Shown here: positions 1,822 to 7,021 of the stretch, in pieces
Position numbering within the stretch: the stretch's first letter is position 1
How the letters are laid out: each line of letters opens with the position of its first letter
From: Alphaproteobacteria bacterium 65-37
GTDB taxonomy: Bacteria > Pseudomonadota > Alphaproteobacteria > Reyranellales > Reyranellaceae
Reading direction: 5' to 3'
Assembly: GCA_001897995.1 (NCBI GenBank)
Contig: MKRV01000316.1
Span: forward strand, 1-33,789
DNA: 33,789 nucleotides
Translations under genes and position numbers: made by a program
Notes under the pieces: model-generated
Databases searched by the model: none
What the model saw: the letters and a program-made list of their open reading frames with translations, nothing else
What the model was told of the DNA's origin: nothing

Positions 1822-2145
1822 AGAATGAAAGAGGTGCCTGCGCGAGCATGATCCGTCGATAGAGGGCGGTCCGGCGCGCTCCCAGCGAAATCTCATCCAC
1901 AAGATCGGCTCCCCCAATTGACTCGGCCTCCCCCCGGTGAAACGATTTCCGCGACTGAGGGCTTTGCTCCGAGAACGAGGCGCCGCGGGTTTGTTCCCTG
2001 CGTTCGCGTCACGGCCGAGAGTAGAACAAGCGACCGTCACGGACGCTGGGGCCAGCCCGTCCTTACCTGGAGATACATCCGGGAGACTCCTCCGGGGCTT
2101 CGACGCGCTTGCAGTCGCGAAGAAGGAAAGAAGGAGGACGTTTTC
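1822..2145. other. Non-coding leader before the EF-G-like gene
   Basis: No convincing gene. The frame upstream of the EF-G-like gene stays open to 1918, but its translation has no family resemblance and the ribosome binding site lies at 2131. A modest hairpin (GGACG, CTGG/CCAG, CGTCC) sits at about 2041-2062. I see no clear promoter. Confidence 0.5.
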
Positions 2146-4221
2146 ATGGCCGACCCCAGAACAGAAACGATCATCGGCGGCAGACCAGGTAGCGGCGCGC
2201 ACCGCGTGGTGGCGCTGTGCGGGCCGTACCTTTCGGGCAAGACCAGCCTGCTCGAAAGCATCCTCTTCGCCACCGGGGCCATCGGCCGGCGCGGTTCGAC
2301 GCGAGCCGGCACCTCGATCGGCGACGGCTCGGCCGAAGCGCGCAAGCGCAGCATGGGCACCGAGATCAACATCGCGTCGGTCGACTATCTCGGCGACCAG
2401 TGGACCTTCCTCGACGTCCCGGGCTCGATCGAGTTCCAGAACGATTCCTTCGCCGCCCTCGCGGTGTGCGATGCCGCGGTGGTCGTCTGCGAGCCCTCGC
2501 CCGACCGCGTCGTCACCCTGGCGCCGCTGCTGAAATACATCGAAGACCATCACCTGCCGCACATCATCTTCATCAACAAAATCGATTCCGCCGAGGTCCG
2601 CGTGCGCGACATGCTGTCGGCGCTGCAGGCCGTCTCGACCCGCAAGCTGGTGCTGCGCCAGGTGCCGATCCGCCGGGCAGCCGCCGACGGCAGCGACGAG
2701 ACGGTGGGCTATGTCGACCTCGTGAGCGAGCGCGCCTACCGCTACAAGTCGAGCGGCGCCTCGGACCTGATCGAGATGCCCGCCGAAGTGCTGCCGCGCG
2801 AATCGGAAGCGCGCCGCGAGATGCTGGAAACCTTGTCGGAGTTCGACGACACGCTGCTCGAGCAGCTGATCGAGGATGTCGCGCCGGAAAAATCGCTGAT
2901 CTATCGCGATCTGCACGACGAGTTCGGCTCCGACCAGATCGCGCCCGTGCTGCTGGGCGCCGGCGACCGCGAGAACGGCGTGCGCCGCCTCCTGAAGGCC
3001 TTGCGCCACGACACGCCCTTCGTCGAGGTGACGGCGAAGCGCCGCGAGCTGCCCTCGAACGGCGTGGCGCTCGCGGAATGCTTCAAGGTCCTGCACCAGA
3101 GCCATGCCGGCAAGCTTTCGCTCTGCCGCATCTGGTCGGGCACACTCAGCGAAGGCCAGTCGGTCGGCGGCCAGCGAATCGGCACCCTGCTGCGGCCGTT
3201 CGGCCAGCGCCTCGACAAGGTGGCCGAGGCCAAGGCCGGCGAGATCGTGGCGCTGGCCAAGGTCGATGCCCTGTCGGCCGGCCAGACCCTCTCGGCCGGC
3301 GGCATCGCCGCCTCGGCCGATTTCCCGGCGGCCGATCCGCCGGTCTTCGCTTTGTCGCTCGCCGCCAAGAACCGCAACGACGAGGTCAAGCTCTCCGGCG
3401 CGCTGCACAAGATCGTCGAGGAGGATCCCTCGCTCTCCTTCGAGGCGCGCGGCGAGACGCACGAGCTGCTGCTCAAGGGCCAGGGCGAGATGCATCTCAA
3501 GGTGGCCGTCGACAAGCTCGCCAGCCGCTACAACGTCGCGGTCGAGACGATGGCGCCGCGCGTCGCCTATCGCGAGACCATCCAGGCCGGTGCGCAGCAG
3601 CACGCCCGCTACAAGCGGCAGACCGGCGGTCACGGCCAGTTCGCCGACATCAAGGTCGAGATCAAGCCGTTGCCGCGCGGTTCGGGCTTCCGCTTCGTCG
3701 ACAAGGTCGTGGGCGGCGTGGTGCCGCGCAACTTCATCCCTGCCGTCGAGGACGGGCTGGTCGACTATCTCAAGGAAGGCCCGCTCGGCCAGCCGGTGGT
3801 CGATCTCGAAGTGACGCTGTTCGACGGCCAGTACCACTCGGTCGACAGCTCGGAAATGTCATTCAAGATGGCGGCGCGCATCGCCATGAGCGAGGCGATG
3901 CCCAAGTGCAAGCCGGTGCTGCTGGAACCGATCCTCAAGGTGACGGTGATCGGGCCGAGCGAATCGACGCCGCGGCTGCAGCGGCTGATCTCCGGGCGGC
4001 GCGGCCAGCTCCTGGGCTTCGACACGCGACCCGGCTGGAATGGCTGGGACGAGGTCTCGGCCCTCATGCCCGAAGCGGAGATCGCCGACATGATCGTGGA
4101 GATCCGCTCGGTCACGCAGGGGGTCGGCAGTTTCCGCATCGAATTCGACCATCTGCAGGAACTGGTCGGACGCACCGCCGACCGCATCGTCGAGGAGACG
4201 AAGAAGCACGCGGCGGCGTGA
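2146..4221 (+). CDS. Elongation factor G-like translational GTPase (divergent paralogue)
   Basis: 691 residues, the length of EF-G, with GTPase domain, domain II and EF-G-type domains III-V. The P-loop is GPYLSGKTS (26-34), G3 is DVPG (90-93) and G4 is NKID (144-147). In canonical EF-G the residue after DTPG is the catalytic His of DTPGHVDF; here the motif is DVPGSIEF, so Ser94 stands in its place. The switch I RGITI-type motif is also altered to MGTEINIA. It is therefore a paralogue, not the housekeeping fusA, and it stands alone with no ribosomal protein genes. The start was chosen for AAGGAGG at 2131-2137, 8 nt before ATG. Cellular role unknown. Confidence 0.85.
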   Translation: MADPRTETIIGGRPGSGAHRVVALCGPYLSGKTSLLESILFATGAIGRRGSTRAGTSIGDGSAEARKRSMGTEINIASVDYLGDQWTFLDVPGSIEFQNDSFAALAVCDAAVVVCEPSPDRVVTLAPLLKYIEDHHLPHIIFINKIDSAEVRVRDMLSALQAVSTRKLVLRQVPIRRAAADGSDETVGYVDLVSERAYRYKSSGASDLIEMPAEVLPRESEARREMLETLSEFDDTLLEQLIEDVAPEKSLIYRDLHDEFGSDQIAPVLLGAGDRENGVRRLLKALRHDTPFVEVTAKRRELPSNGVALAECFKVLHQSHAGKLSLCRIWSGTLSEGQSVGGQRIGTLLRPFGQRLDKVAEAKAGEIVALAKVDALSAGQTLSAGGIAASADFPAADPPVFALSLAAKNRNDEVKLSGALHKIVEEDPSLSFEARGETHELLLKGQGEMHLKVAVDKLASRYNVAVETMAPRVAYRETIQAGAQQHARYKRQTGGHGQFADIKVEIKPLPRGSGFRFVDKVVGGVVPRNFIPAVEDGLVDYLKEGPLGQPVVDLEVTLFDGQYHSVDSSEMSFKMAARIAMSEAMPKCKPVLLEPILKVTVIGPSESTPRLQRLISGRRGQLLGFDTRPGWNGWDEVSALMPEAEIADMIVEIRSVTQGVGSFRIEFDHLQELVGRTADRIVEETKKHAAA

Positions 4222-4247
4222 GGCCTCTCTCCTTTTTCCTTCATCCT

Positions 4248-4365
4248 CCTCTCCCCCGCTTCGGGGGAGAGGTTGGGTGAGGGGGAAGTGAGGCATGCAG
4301 AAATCATACAGGCGCGCGGTTGTGGCGCCCCCTCACCTACCCTCTCCCCCGAAACGGGGGAGAGG
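4248..4365. repeat. CCTCTCCCCC-type palindromic repeat, copy A2
   Basis: Same layout as the copy at 1705: terminal CCTCTCCCCC hairpins with GGGGGAGAGG partners and an inner GGTGAGGGGG-type arm. It begins 26 bp after the EF-G-like stop and may act as a 3' end for that transcript. Confidence 0.85.
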
Positions 4366-4487
4366 AACATGAATTGAGGGGAAAACATTGAATCACATCC
4401 GGGTGAGGGTGCGGCTTGGCGGCTTCACGCTTGGCGCTGCACTGCCCATAGTCTTCCGGTTCGATCCCCCAACTGGAGAGCATATCC

Positions 4488-4922
4488 ATGTTCAAGAGAC
4501 GGTCTCTGATGGCGGGCAGCCTGGCGATGGCTGCCGCGACATCACTGACCCGCGCCGCGGTTGCCCAGGCTGGGCGCCCGACGCTGGTGTTCGTCGGCCA
4601 CGAGCTTTGAGGCGGCTGCAAGATCTGGCGTGCCCAGTCCGAGCCTGAGCTTCTCAAGTCCGACGCTTTCAAGAAGATCGACTATGTCGTCGTCCATCCA
4701 GCCAACGCCGACCTGATCCTGGTCGACGAGAGCTGGCCGGCCGCGGCACGGCCCATCCGGGCAGCTTTCCTGGCGAGCGACGAAGGCAAGAGCCGGCCGA
4801 ACGCCACGCCGCGCTTCATTCTCTACAGGGACGGCAAGGTCGTCCTGGCCGTGTCCGGCAATGCCGGCTGGAAGGAGAAGATGTGGCCGGCGATTCAGGA
4901 AGCAACTGGTACCAAGGCCTGA
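4488..4922 (+). CDS. Thioredoxin-like exported protein with in-frame TGA (candidate selenoprotein, UxxC)
   Basis: The frame from ATG 4488 (GGAGAG at 4474-4479, 8-nt spacing) runs to TGA 4920-4922 and is broken only by TGA at 4608-4610, codon 41. Read as selenocysteine, it gives a 144-residue protein with a Tat-like signal (FKRRSLMAGS) and U41-G-G-C44, a UxxC in place of a thioredoxin CxxC. The 103 codons after the TGA stay open and align throughout with the next gene, where Ser42 occupies the U position and Cys45 the resolving Cys. If the TGA were a true stop, only a signal-peptide stub would be made. A possible SECIS hairpin follows. The alternative is a recent nonsense mutation (pseudogene). 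No sel genes are visible in this window. Confidence 0.55.
4608..4645 (+). promoter_or_regulatory. Possible bacterial SECIS hairpin after the in-frame UGA
   Basis: Directly after the UGA, GGCU (4614-4617) can pair with AGCC (4642-4645), and CUGG (4625-4628) with CCAG (4634-4637), leaving a 5-nt apical loop CGUGC (4629-4633). The loop starts 19 nt after the UGA and has G at its second position; as I recall, bacterial SECIS elements have a loop 16-37 nt downstream with a G in the first two positions. GC-rich DNA forms hairpins easily, so this is supportive only. Confidence 0.4.
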
Positions 4923-4949
4923 AGCATCACAGCCTGATTTGCCTGTATA

Positions 4950-4977
4950 GTCTCCCCGGGGCTTTTCTCGGGGAGAC
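4950..4977 (+). promoter_or_regulatory. Hairpin that hides the ribosome binding site of the next gene
   Basis: GTCTCCCCG (4950-4958) pairs perfectly with CGGGGAGAC (4969-4977) around a 10-nt loop. The right arm is the GGGGAGA Shine-Dalgarno sequence of the gene at 4985. Folding would block initiation. It may also serve as a weak terminator for the upstream gene, though a T-tract is lacking. Confidence 0.5.
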
Positions 4978-4984
4978 GCATTCG

Positions 4985-5422
4985 ATGATCGACAGACGCA
5001 AGCTGGTTGCGGGCGGCCTCACGCTCGCGGCCCTGTCGTCGTTTGGCCAGATGGCGGCGGGACAGACGGCGACCAAGCCACTGCTGATCTTTGCCGGCGA
5101 CGAGACCTCGGCGGCCTGCAAGACGTGGCGGACCGACTGGGAGCCGCTGTTCAAGCAGGCACCAGTCTTTGCCAAGCTCGACTACCGGGTCGTCTTCCCC
5201 GCCACCCCCACCCTGCTGCTGAAGCCGGCCAGCTGGCCGGCCGACCTGCGCTGGGTGCTCGACGCCTTCCTGATGAGCCAGGTCGGCGTCGACCAGGGCG
5301 CCGAAACGCCGCGTTTCTTCCTGATCCAGAACGGCCAGATCATCCTGACCACGGTCGGCGTCAATTCCTGGCGGGACGTCATGTGGCCGACCCTGCTGGA
5401 TGTCACGAACTCCAAGCCCTAG
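4985..5422 (+). CDS. Thioredoxin-like exported protein, SxxC paralogue of the upstream gene
   Basis: 145 residues with a Tat-like N-terminus (DRRKLVAGGLTLAAL) ending near an AGQTA cleavage region. By eye it aligns from end to end with the preceding TGA-containing gene: shared features are CK-x-WR, EPL, LDY-x-VV-x-PA, SWPA, TPRF and MWP. The thioredoxin motif is S42-A-A-C45, so only the resolving Cys is present. The start follows GGGGAGA at 4970-4976. A tandem duplication is likely. Function unproven; a periplasmic redox or metal-handling role fits the neighbourhood, which includes MsrP. Confidence 0.75.
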   Translation: MIDRRKLVAGGLTLAALSSFGQMAAGQTATKPLLIFAGDETSAACKTWRTDWEPLFKQAPVFAKLDYRVVFPATPTLLLKPASWPADLRWVLDAFLMSQVGVDQGAETPRFFLIQNGQIILTTVGVNSWRDVMWPTLLDVTNSKP

Positions 5423-5454
5423 AGTCGGACGGTGGCACGAACGGAGGGTCTTCG

Positions 5455-5967
5455 ATGACCAGCGACCTCTTCCGCCGTCAGCTCGCCAGCTACGCCTCGG
5501 TCCATCGCGACCGGCGCAACAAGGCGACGCACTTCGTCGGCATTCCCATCATCGTCTTCTCCTTGCTGCTCATCCTTTGCCTGTGGCGCTTCGAGCTGGG
5601 CGGCCGCGATTGGTCGCTGTCGCTGGCGGTCGCGATCGTGGCGGTGCTGGGCTGGATGGCGCTCGATCTCGGCGTCGGCGCCCTGATGGGCCTCCTCATG
5701 GCGCCGGCCTGGTACGCCGCCGAAGCGCTCGCCGGCACGCTCGGCTCGCCGGCGGCGGTCTGGGGTGCCTTCGCCGTCCTGTTCGTCGGCGGATGGATCC
5801 TGCAGTTCCTCGGCCATCACTACGAAGGCAAGCGTCCGGCGCTGATCGACAATATCTTCCAGGCCTTCATCGGTCCGATGTTCCTGGTCGCCGAAACCTT
5901 GGTGGTGCTGGGTCAACGTCCCGATCTTGCAGAGGCCATGGGAGAAGCCAACGTCACGGTGCGGTGA
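5455..5967 (+). CDS. DUF962 / Mpo1-like membrane protein
   Basis: 170 residues with four hydrophobic segments (about 28-45, 58-75, 80-95, 103-120). The family signatures are present: HRDRRNKATHFVGIP near residues 18-32 and LQFLGHHYEGKRPAL near 124-138. Yeast Mpo1 (YGL010w) of this family is an iron-dependent 2-hydroxy fatty acid dioxygenase, and the conserved His residues match. Whether the bacterial protein shares that reaction is not known. It follows the SxxC gene by 32 bp, with GGAGGG before the start, and may be in the same operon. Confidence 0.8.
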   Translation: MTSDLFRRQLASYASVHRDRRNKATHFVGIPIIVFSLLLILCLWRFELGGRDWSLSLAVAIVAVLGWMALDLGVGALMGLLMAPAWYAAEALAGTLGSPAAVWGAFAVLFVGGWILQFLGHHYEGKRPALIDNIFQAFIGPMFLVAETLVVLGQRPDLAEAMGEANVTVR

Positions 5968-6046: not shown

Positions 6047-7021
6047 ATGCTAATCAAGCGCAGGCACGGCTGGGAACTGCCGGAAGCCAAGGCTACCCCG
6101 GAAAGCCACTATCTGCAGCGCCGCGAGCTGGTGCGCTCCATGGGACTCGGGATGGCGGCGGGAGCGGCGGCAATGGCGCTGCCGGCGACGGCCTTCGCGC
6201 AAGCCAAGGCGGCCGATCCCTCGGCCGGCCTCTATCCAGCCAAGCGCAACGACAAGTACGGCGTGCCGGCGCCCATGACGGCGGAGAAGCTCGCCACGAC
6301 CTACAACAATTTCTACGAGTTCGGCACCGACAAGAGCATCTGGCGCGACGCCCAGAAGCTCGAGGTCCGGCCCTGGACGATCAAGGTCGACGGCATGGTG
6401 GAGAAGCCGTTCGAGATCGGCATCGACGACCTGCTGGCCAAGGTGCAGCTCGAGGAGCGCGTTTACCGCCATCGCTGCGTCGAGACCTGGTCGATGATCG
6501 TGCCGTGGAGCGGCTTTCCCGTGCGCGCGCTGGTCGAGCTCTGCAAGCCGCTGGGCGGCGCCAAGTTCGTCGTGATGAAGACGCTCAGCAAGCCGTCGGT
6601 CATGCGCGAGCAGCGCGACCTGCTCTATCCCTGGCCGTATGTCGAGGGCCTGGCGATGGACGAGGCGATGAACGACCTCGCCTTCATCGCCACCGGCCTC
6701 TACGGCAAGCCGATCCATAAGCAGAACGGCGCGCCGCTCCGGCTGGTGGCGCCGTGGAAGTACGGTTTCAAGAACGTGAAGTCGATCGTCAGCGTCGAGT
6801 TCACCGACAAGCGGCCGGTCTCGTTCTGGGAGAAGCTGCAGGCCAGCGAGTACGGCTTCTGGGCCAATGTGAACCCGCAGGTGCCGCACCCGCGCTGGAG
6901 CCAGGCGACCGAGAAGCCGCTGGGCAGCGACGAGCGCATCCCGACCCAGCTCTACAACGGCTATGCGGAGTTCGTGTCGAGCCTCTACGCCGACCGCAAG
7001 GCGGAAAAACTCTTCATGTAG
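6047..7021 (+). CDS. msrP: Protein-methionine-sulfoxide reductase catalytic subunit MsrP
   Basis: 324 residues, the YedY/MsrP molybdopterin enzyme that repairs oxidised methionines of periplasmic proteins. A twin-arginine signal (RRELVRSMGLG followed by an AFAQA cleavage site) directs folded, Mo-loaded export. Cys144 in RHRCVETWSM is the expected Mo ligand, and the WSGFP and PLRLVAPWKYGFK segments are typical. The usual haem partner MsrQ is not next to it: the flanking genes are DUF962 and a solute-binding protein. It therefore needs another electron donor or a distant msrQ. The ATG follows GGAGTGAG. Confidence 0.92.
   Translation: MLIKRRHGWELPEAKATPESHYLQRRELVRSMGLGMAAGAAAMALPATAFAQAKAADPSAGLYPAKRNDKYGVPAPMTAEKLATTYNNFYEFGTDKSIWRDAQKLEVRPWTIKVDGMVEKPFEIGIDDLLAKVQLEERVYRHRCVETWSMIVPWSGFPVRALVELCKPLGGAKFVVMKTLSKPSVMREQRDLLYPWPYVEGLAMDEAMNDLAFIATGLYGKPIHKQNGAPLRLVAPWKYGFKNVKSIVSVEFTDKRPVSFWEKLQASEYGFWANVNPQVPHPRWSQATEKPLGSDERIPTQLYNGYAEFVSSLYADRKAEKLFM

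Follow-up and report, generated by a model that had tools for sequence, protein, structure and literature searches.

A predicted exported selenoprotein of the thioredoxin fold, with a UxxC motif whose UGA codon is conserved across the presumed genus Reyranella

The gene on the forward strand at positions 4488-4922 of a 33,789-nucleotide stretch of DNA (the window, meaning the whole stretch analysed) almost certainly encodes an exported thioredoxin-fold selenoprotein, in which selenocysteine (Sec) is inserted at codon 41 under the direction of SelB and a hairpin, and which would act as an extracytoplasmic thiol(selenol)-disulfide oxidoreductase. Computed support for this proposal comes from a conserved UGA codon, an open and constrained reading frame, genes for SelA, SelB and tRNA-Sec, a SECIS hairpin, a Cys replacement and a predicted fold, and these same lines of evidence (UGA conservation, machinery, SECIS, Cys form, predicted fold) bear out a sequence-only reading of this DNA that had proposed a candidate thioredoxin-like selenoprotein with UGA in a UxxC motif.

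In the proposed mechanism, SelB with Sec-tRNA(UCA) would bind the hairpin just behind the UGA, and Sec inserted at codon 41 would yield the active site Sec-Gly-Gly-Cys where the first active-site helix begins, and Pro108 would occupy the cis-Pro position. Once exported via a twin-arginine-type signal, the protein would serve as an extracytoplasmic thiol(selenol)-disulfide oxidoreductase. We infer that the protein contains Sec, is exported and is redox active; judging from fold, motif and signal, its most likely chemistry is selenenylsulfide/thiol-disulfide exchange at Sec41-Cys44 outside the cytoplasm.

The UGA gene and its conservation

The frame begins with ATG and spans 4488-4922, which corresponds to 144 residues if UGA 41 is Sec. 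As had been claimed, TGA occupies codon 41 (4608-4610), Cys occupies codon 44 (4617-4619) and 103 codons are open after the TGA, up to the gene's terminal TGA at 4920-4922. The putative Sec at residue 41 is the first residue of a UGGC motif; Cys44, its partner in UxxC, is invariant in family alignments A1 (33 rows) and A2 (70 rows), as is Pro108 (4809-4811) of a TPRF motif, at the putative cis-Pro place of thioredoxin folds. Other invariant positions in the family alignment are W47-R48, W83-P84 and, together with P108, R109-F110. A Shine-Dalgarno-like GGAGAG (4475-4480, forward strand) lies 7 nt before the ATG, so the ribosome binding site noted earlier stands. The export signal noted with it is less firmly placed: the N-terminus (MFKRRSLMAG...AVAQA; 4488-4571, forward strand, with nature and cleavage site both predicted) resembles a twin-arginine signal, but the Pfam TAT_signal model matches it at 14.9 bits, below the cut-off of 22.7. 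The same model matches at E<=0.5 in 36 of the 70 alignment members. The region 4200-5500 gave no Rfam match above cut-off and showed neither a promoter nor a T-run terminator. A strong hairpin that has no T-run occurs at 4950-4978, between the UGA gene and the adjacent paralogue, which carries Ser in place of Sec; the 55-base stretch that holds it (4931-4985) has a free energy of -23.3 kcal/mol.

A search of 101 genomes, comprising the source genome (G000), 60 others of the same genus (probably Reyranella) and 40 from elsewhere, found the UGA gene in 57 of the 61 genus genomes, as 56 intact loci plus one gene split over two contigs (in G017), and gave no match in any of the 40 genomes outside the genus. 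Codon 41 is TGA in all 56 intact loci. The four genus genomes that have no UGA gene are G001, G021, G034 and G045, and the first of these carries a Cys form in the same slot; thus a search of homologues for TGA or Cys at this position, which the sequence-only reading had proposed, returned both. Among 385 genomes drawn from the class, 10 had a match and five of these had the UGA gene, four of them belonging to the genus and the fifth (G247) to another genus of the same family.

All 56 intact loci stay open from the TGA through to their final stop, which comes two codons early in L066 and one codon late in L077. The piece in G017 (locus L127) goes out of frame 57 codons past the TGA, close to a contig end. 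Among the 1509 pairs, out of 1540, whose dS falls within 0.2-1.2, dN/dS behind the TGA has a median of 0.29 and reaches at most 0.70. The terminal stop codons of the 56 genes are TAG in 37, TGA in 18 and TAA in one; since 18 of these genes themselves end in TGA, UGA still means stop in these genomes, and a reassignment of this codon was rejected. A DNA pattern combining the UGA and the SECIS has one exact match in the window and, when up to three mismatches are allowed, two matches against 0.03 expected. A slightly looser pattern occurs in 60 of 65 genus genomes, being missing in G001, G021, G034, G045 and G445, and in none of the 65 when read backwards. Chance was rejected on the genus-wide TGA and these pattern counts: the TGA, the frame and the DNA just behind the TGA are kept across the genus more than chance would allow.

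The family also extends to named records. A protein-alignment scan of named contigs with A1 found no relative, because the pattern held Cys in place of Sec, and a scan of named records with the DNA pattern returned 83 stretches; of the 80 loci listed, 71 scored above 100 bits with the A1 profile (61 with UGGC and 10 with UGPC) and the remaining nine resemble chance matches. Hosts include Reyranella massiliensis 521, R. soli, R. aquatilis, Enhydrobacter aerosaccus ATCC 27094, Vineibacter terrae, Reyranella sp. CPCC 100927 and many MAGs. Since R. massiliensis 521, R. soli, R. aquatilis and V. terrae have records that carry no MAG label, the question of why Sec would be kept at codon 41 is open to experiment.

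In the protein database, the query has 51 matches, none of which covers more than 63% of it; 49 of the 51 are 77-91 residues long, and the 15 that were examined are all pieces from one side of the UGA, 14 of them starting behind it. This is thus a lineage where the examined database pieces cut the gene at the UGA. Such pieces are what would be seen if an ordinary thioredoxin-like gene had become a pseudogene by a fresh nonsense mutation, the competing explanation named at the outset, but TGA in 56 of 56 intact orthologues, the low dN/dS behind it, the invariant codons just behind it and the Cys form in the same slot make that explanation vanishingly improbable, and conservation over the genus excludes a fresh mutation. 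The same pieces, by their lengths and starts, also suit a model in which the UGA truly terminates translation, which then resumes downstream, giving a signal stub and a second piece. This is extremely improbable, as the second piece would miss the first strand of the fold and the beginning of its active site, and its predicted start varies from species to species.

A predicted SECIS hairpin and the selenocysteine machinery

The hairpin proposed to direct Sec insertion lies at 4622-4639 on the forward strand, with pairs 4622-4623/4638-4639 and 4625-4628/4634-4637, a bulged U at 4624 and an apical loop CGUGC at 4629-4633, in which CGT is present in 56 of 56 intact orthologues and G23 and U24 fall at 4630-4631. 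With nt 1 set at the U of UGA, the helix begins at nt 15, which is 11 nt past that codon, the upper stem comprises nt 18-21/27-30, and the apical loop (nt 22-26) begins 18 nt after the UGA. An earlier claim of a hairpin with a G in its apical loop therefore stands, while its start, given as 19 nt after the UGA, is corrected to these two distances. The published rules for bacterial SECIS elements call for a loop of 3-9 nt, a G in the first two loop positions, a stem of 4-16 bp and a spacing of 16-37 nt (PMC13188914). Compared by hand, the hairpin agrees with these rules (loop CGUGC, a 4-bp upper stem, a spacing of 18 nt); this comparison with bacterial SECIS elements, another check that had been suggested, came out in favour of the hairpin, and covariation is also seen.

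The codons that encode this element are unusually constrained. Codons +4 to +9 after the TGA read AAG ATC TGG CGT GCC CAG in 56 of 56 loci, so that all five degenerate positions in this stretch are invariant against 2 of 47 elsewhere, where positions were counted if the residue is kept in at least 50 of the 56 loci (Fisher 8e-6, for a stretch chosen after viewing the data). The Arg codon within it is CGT in 56 of 56 UGA genes and at the same place in only 1 of 24 distinct Ser paralogues, which have CGC in 19, CGG in four and CGT in one (p=4e-19, uncorrected for relatedness); further downstream, CGT makes up 9% of other Arg codons (23 of 243). The Cys form in G001 reads AAA ATG TGG CGC GCG CAA over the same six codons, with four synonymous changes and one non-synonymous change, suggesting that the constraint on the SECIS codons is lifted where Sec has been lost. 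Beyond the 56 loci, G017/L127 has AAA as codon +4, and L168 and L084 have GTC as codon +5.

The structure is also kept among more distant members. An RNAalifold consensus of 37 distinct sequences contains pairs 15-32, 16-31 and 18-30 to 21-27 and leaves base 17 bulged, although pair 18-30 is broken in L162 and the two outer pairs hold in just 8 and 13 of the 37 sequences. Compensatory changes occur in five of eight pairs, and cells in which both sides changed and still pair number 21 against 5.9 in shuffled alignments and at most 9 in slid ones, the eight pairs having been named after viewing the sequences; for further pair types, one of five pair-count measures, 29 of 500 shuffles reached the observed value. 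Because some of the 37 sequences came from a search with a DNA pattern in which the loop and most of the upper stem are fixed, the invariance of these elements in the 37 rows is partly a product of how the rows were selected. The 56 orthologues and nine further members (L084-L091 and L104) were found by protein similarity and not by the DNA pattern, and in these nine G23-U24 is kept in all and the upper stem pairs, with a C-G pair of the upper stem changed to U-A in L091. Four of the nine have U as base 17, and the other five do not retain the bulged U17. The free energy of the hairpin is -15.7 kcal/mol over 48 nt, -10.8 over 42 nt and -4.3 for the 24-nt core, set against a criterion of <= -7.5, and its stability is no better than that of synonymous-codon shuffles, 53% of which are as low for the 24-nt core and 54% for 42 nt.

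In E. coli, U17 and G23 are SelB contacts, along with U24 (PMC8659212). The element described here resembles the SECIS of E. coli fdhF and those of the FdhA genes of the source genome in being a hairpin directly behind the UGA, with U17, G23 and U24 present in the main family and in both of these FdhA genes. It differs from the formate dehydrogenase SECIS in its upper stem (CUGG/CCAG) and 5-nt loop, and base 17 varies in the UGPC paralogues.

The genome of origin (7.15 Mb in 319 contigs, 91% complete) encodes a tRNA-Sec with anticodon TCA on contig C47 (74.5 bits, cut-off 47), SelA on C105 (561 bits), a SelB that is split between two contig ends (269 bits on C47, cut-off 242, and 189 bits on C105) and two FdhA genes with in-frame TGA, one on C105 near selA, where the TGA is single, and one on C245. 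The latter, a second FdhA-type gene with an in-frame TGA, lies at C245:49518-52496. When the sequence-only reading's call for selA, selB, selD and tRNA-Sec was followed up, the machinery was thus found in large part, with SelB split, but SelD over its cut-off was not found in this draft of 319 contigs and 91% completeness; it was found in the other 13 of 14 genomes tested. Its absence may reflect incomplete assembly. The selD neighbourhood of G022, where the selD match lies at C1:748870-749796 (L256), matches contig C119 of the source genome in part, but not in selD. As a side observation, in seven of the 13 relatives the selD match falls within an open frame of 746-767 codons, as if domain-fused, and in the other six within a shorter one.

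Across the genus, tRNA-Sec of at least 70 bits was found in 58 of 62 genomes (not in G007, G019, G040 and G043, which are 60-89% complete) and SelB over its cut-off in 59 of 62 (not in G019, G040 and G046, which are 89, 60 and 96% complete). The five genomes that lack a full-score tRNA-Sec or SelB (G007, G019, G040, G043 and G046) all carry the UGA gene. In control genomes, the tRNA-Sec and SelB models matched in 14 of 14 known genomes but exceeded the cut-off in just five and two, respectively; because controls rarely pass the cut-off, only matches above it were counted.

That SelD was not found would fit a model in which the UGA is read as an ordinary amino acid, by a near-cognate tRNA or local recoding, rather than as Sec. 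This is very unlikely, considering that genes for SelA, SelB, tRNA-Sec and FdhA with UGA are present, that the loop of the hairpin carries the bases described for E. coli, and that the position is occupied by Cys in G001 and, in distant homologues lined up by eye, by the first Cys of CxxC.

Cys and Ser forms, predicted fold and family

Forms of the protein that have residues other than Sec at this position provide a natural experiment: the Sec form is found in 57 of 61 genomes, and the same slot can instead hold a Cys or a Ser form. Between the EF-G gene and msrP, G001 carries a Cys form (CGFC, with TGC at the codon; 53% identity), and G021 only a Ser-type form. Distant homologues, lined up by eye, have CxxC at the position, for example CEPC in the source genome, and CPPC. 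In the window, a neighbouring paralogue (4985-5422, forward strand) has Ser at the Sec position (SAAC) and no UGA. The sequence-only reading had matched the 103 codons behind the TGA to this paralogue over the whole length, and the match holds (4985-5416 against residues 1-143, 41% identity), with the paralogue carrying Ser, not Cys, at the TGA position. All 24 distinct Ser-type paralogues caught by a motif pattern that leaves the Sec position free have Ser there, and the second Cys of the motif is retained. Other family forms include a UAAC copy in G008 and UGPC paralogues at L085-L091. The UGPC loci (L085-L091 and L118, L124, L126, L129, L143, L162, L169, L173, L176 and L185, lists that are partly the same genes) are diverse selenoprotein paralogues with the same SECIS core, and G037 has two.

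An AlphaFold2 model predicts a thioredoxin fold with a mean pLDDT of 87.7, blocks of residues 31-140 reaching 96-98; it contains a helix at 42-50, behind residue 41, and P108 stands just before a strand at 109-114. All 50 PDB matches listed by Foldseek are thioredoxins or thioredoxin-like proteins. The model thus predicts a thioredoxin fold in which UxxC lies at the first active-site helix and a Pro precedes the third core strand. At the level of family models, the protein has no NCBIfam match at E<=0.1 and no Pfam domain above cut-off, with PF00085, PF13098 and PF13899 absent at E<=1; over 70 members, weak matches occur to PF13899 in 11 (best E 0.016) and to PF13098 in four (best E 0.06).

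A 2026 catalogue of prokaryotic selenoproteins comprises 119 families and subfamilies, of which several are UxxC thioredoxin-like (PMC13188914). The comparison covered, in the greater part of its table, the rows filed under NCBIfam and Pfam thioredoxin models, and the families there that have NCBIfam models do not match this protein (PMC13188914). With no NCBIfam match and no Pfam domain above cut-off, the protein fits none of the families in these rows. By this comparison of sequences with NCBIfam and Pfam thioredoxin models, the protein represents a putative new selenoprotein family of a known sort (UxxC, thioredoxin fold), and if this is true it would add a family to the 119 families and subfamilies of the catalogue. 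Since the fold is shared, there may be distant kinship to the catalogued thioredoxin-like selenoproteins.

Among known systems, Sec thioredoxins (PF00085) and thiol:disulfide interchange selenoproteins (PF13098), as represented in the catalogue (Table 1, PMC13188914), share with this protein the UxxC motif, the predicted fold and a presumed thiol-disulfide chemistry. It differs from them in having neither an NCBIfam match nor a Pfam match over cut-off, in its own invariant positions W47-R48, W83-P84 and P108-R109-F110, and in its own gene neighbourhood. SoxS, a periplasmic thioredoxin of Paracoccus pantotrophus (3d4t, 3dml), is also among the closest known systems. In a literature search that mostly covered papers outside subscription, nothing was found on a Reyranella selenoprotein or selenocysteine, and the literature found on MsrP with thioredoxin and on SoxS contained no selenium link.

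Gene neighbourhood and possible role with MsrP

Gene order around the UGA gene is kept as EF-G, the UGA gene, in some loci the Ser paralogue, in some a DUF962-like gene, and MsrP. In the window, the gene directly upstream is EF-G-like (ORF limits 1918-4221, forward strand, with the true start probably inside; NF009379, 968 bits, cut-off 513). Downstream, a gene for a hydrophobic protein that has no NCBIfam match and that we take to be DUF962-like (5455-5967, forward strand) is followed by msrP (6047-7021, forward strand; NF003767, 421 bits, cut-off 207), which encodes the catalytic subunit of protein-methionine-sulfoxide reductase. In the 44 of 61 UGGC loci that have at least 2.6 kb downstream, MsrP is present in 43 (not in L168), the Ser paralogue in 27 and the DUF962-like gene in 24, and EF-G lies upstream in 25 of the 26 UGGC loci, of 61, that have at least 2.9 kb upstream (not in L160). 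Neither MsrP nor EF-G was found near any of the 10 UGPC loci in named records, whose flanks vary in length.

Gene order weakly suggests that the protein may work with MsrP in the redox repair of proteins. The locus resembles the MsrP/MsrQ system of periplasmic methionine sulfoxide repair in having msrP downstream in 43 of 44 UGGC loci. It differs in that the known donor to MsrP is the haem protein MsrQ (PMC8076862), and the MsrQ-like gene of the source genome lies elsewhere in that genome (NF003831, 111.7 bits, below the cut-off of 130). The idea that MsrP here works without its usual donor, with the UGA protein as a substitute, was considered and is unsupported, since a Ferric_reduct gene is present in 15 of 15 genomes. 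A broader proposal, rather doubtful at this stage, is that Reyranella and its nearest relatives possess an extracytoplasmic selenoprotein redox system specific to their lineage, in which the UGGC protein would form the core, often with the Ser paralogue and nearly always with MsrP, jointly repairing oxidised envelope proteins, plus scattered UGPC and UAAC sisters with other partners.

An imperfect palindromic intergenic repeat of ~135 bases also occurs in the window, at 4240-4373 and at 1689-1832, and a query holding this repeat has 88 matches in the source genome, including the query itself as well as partial and reverse matches.
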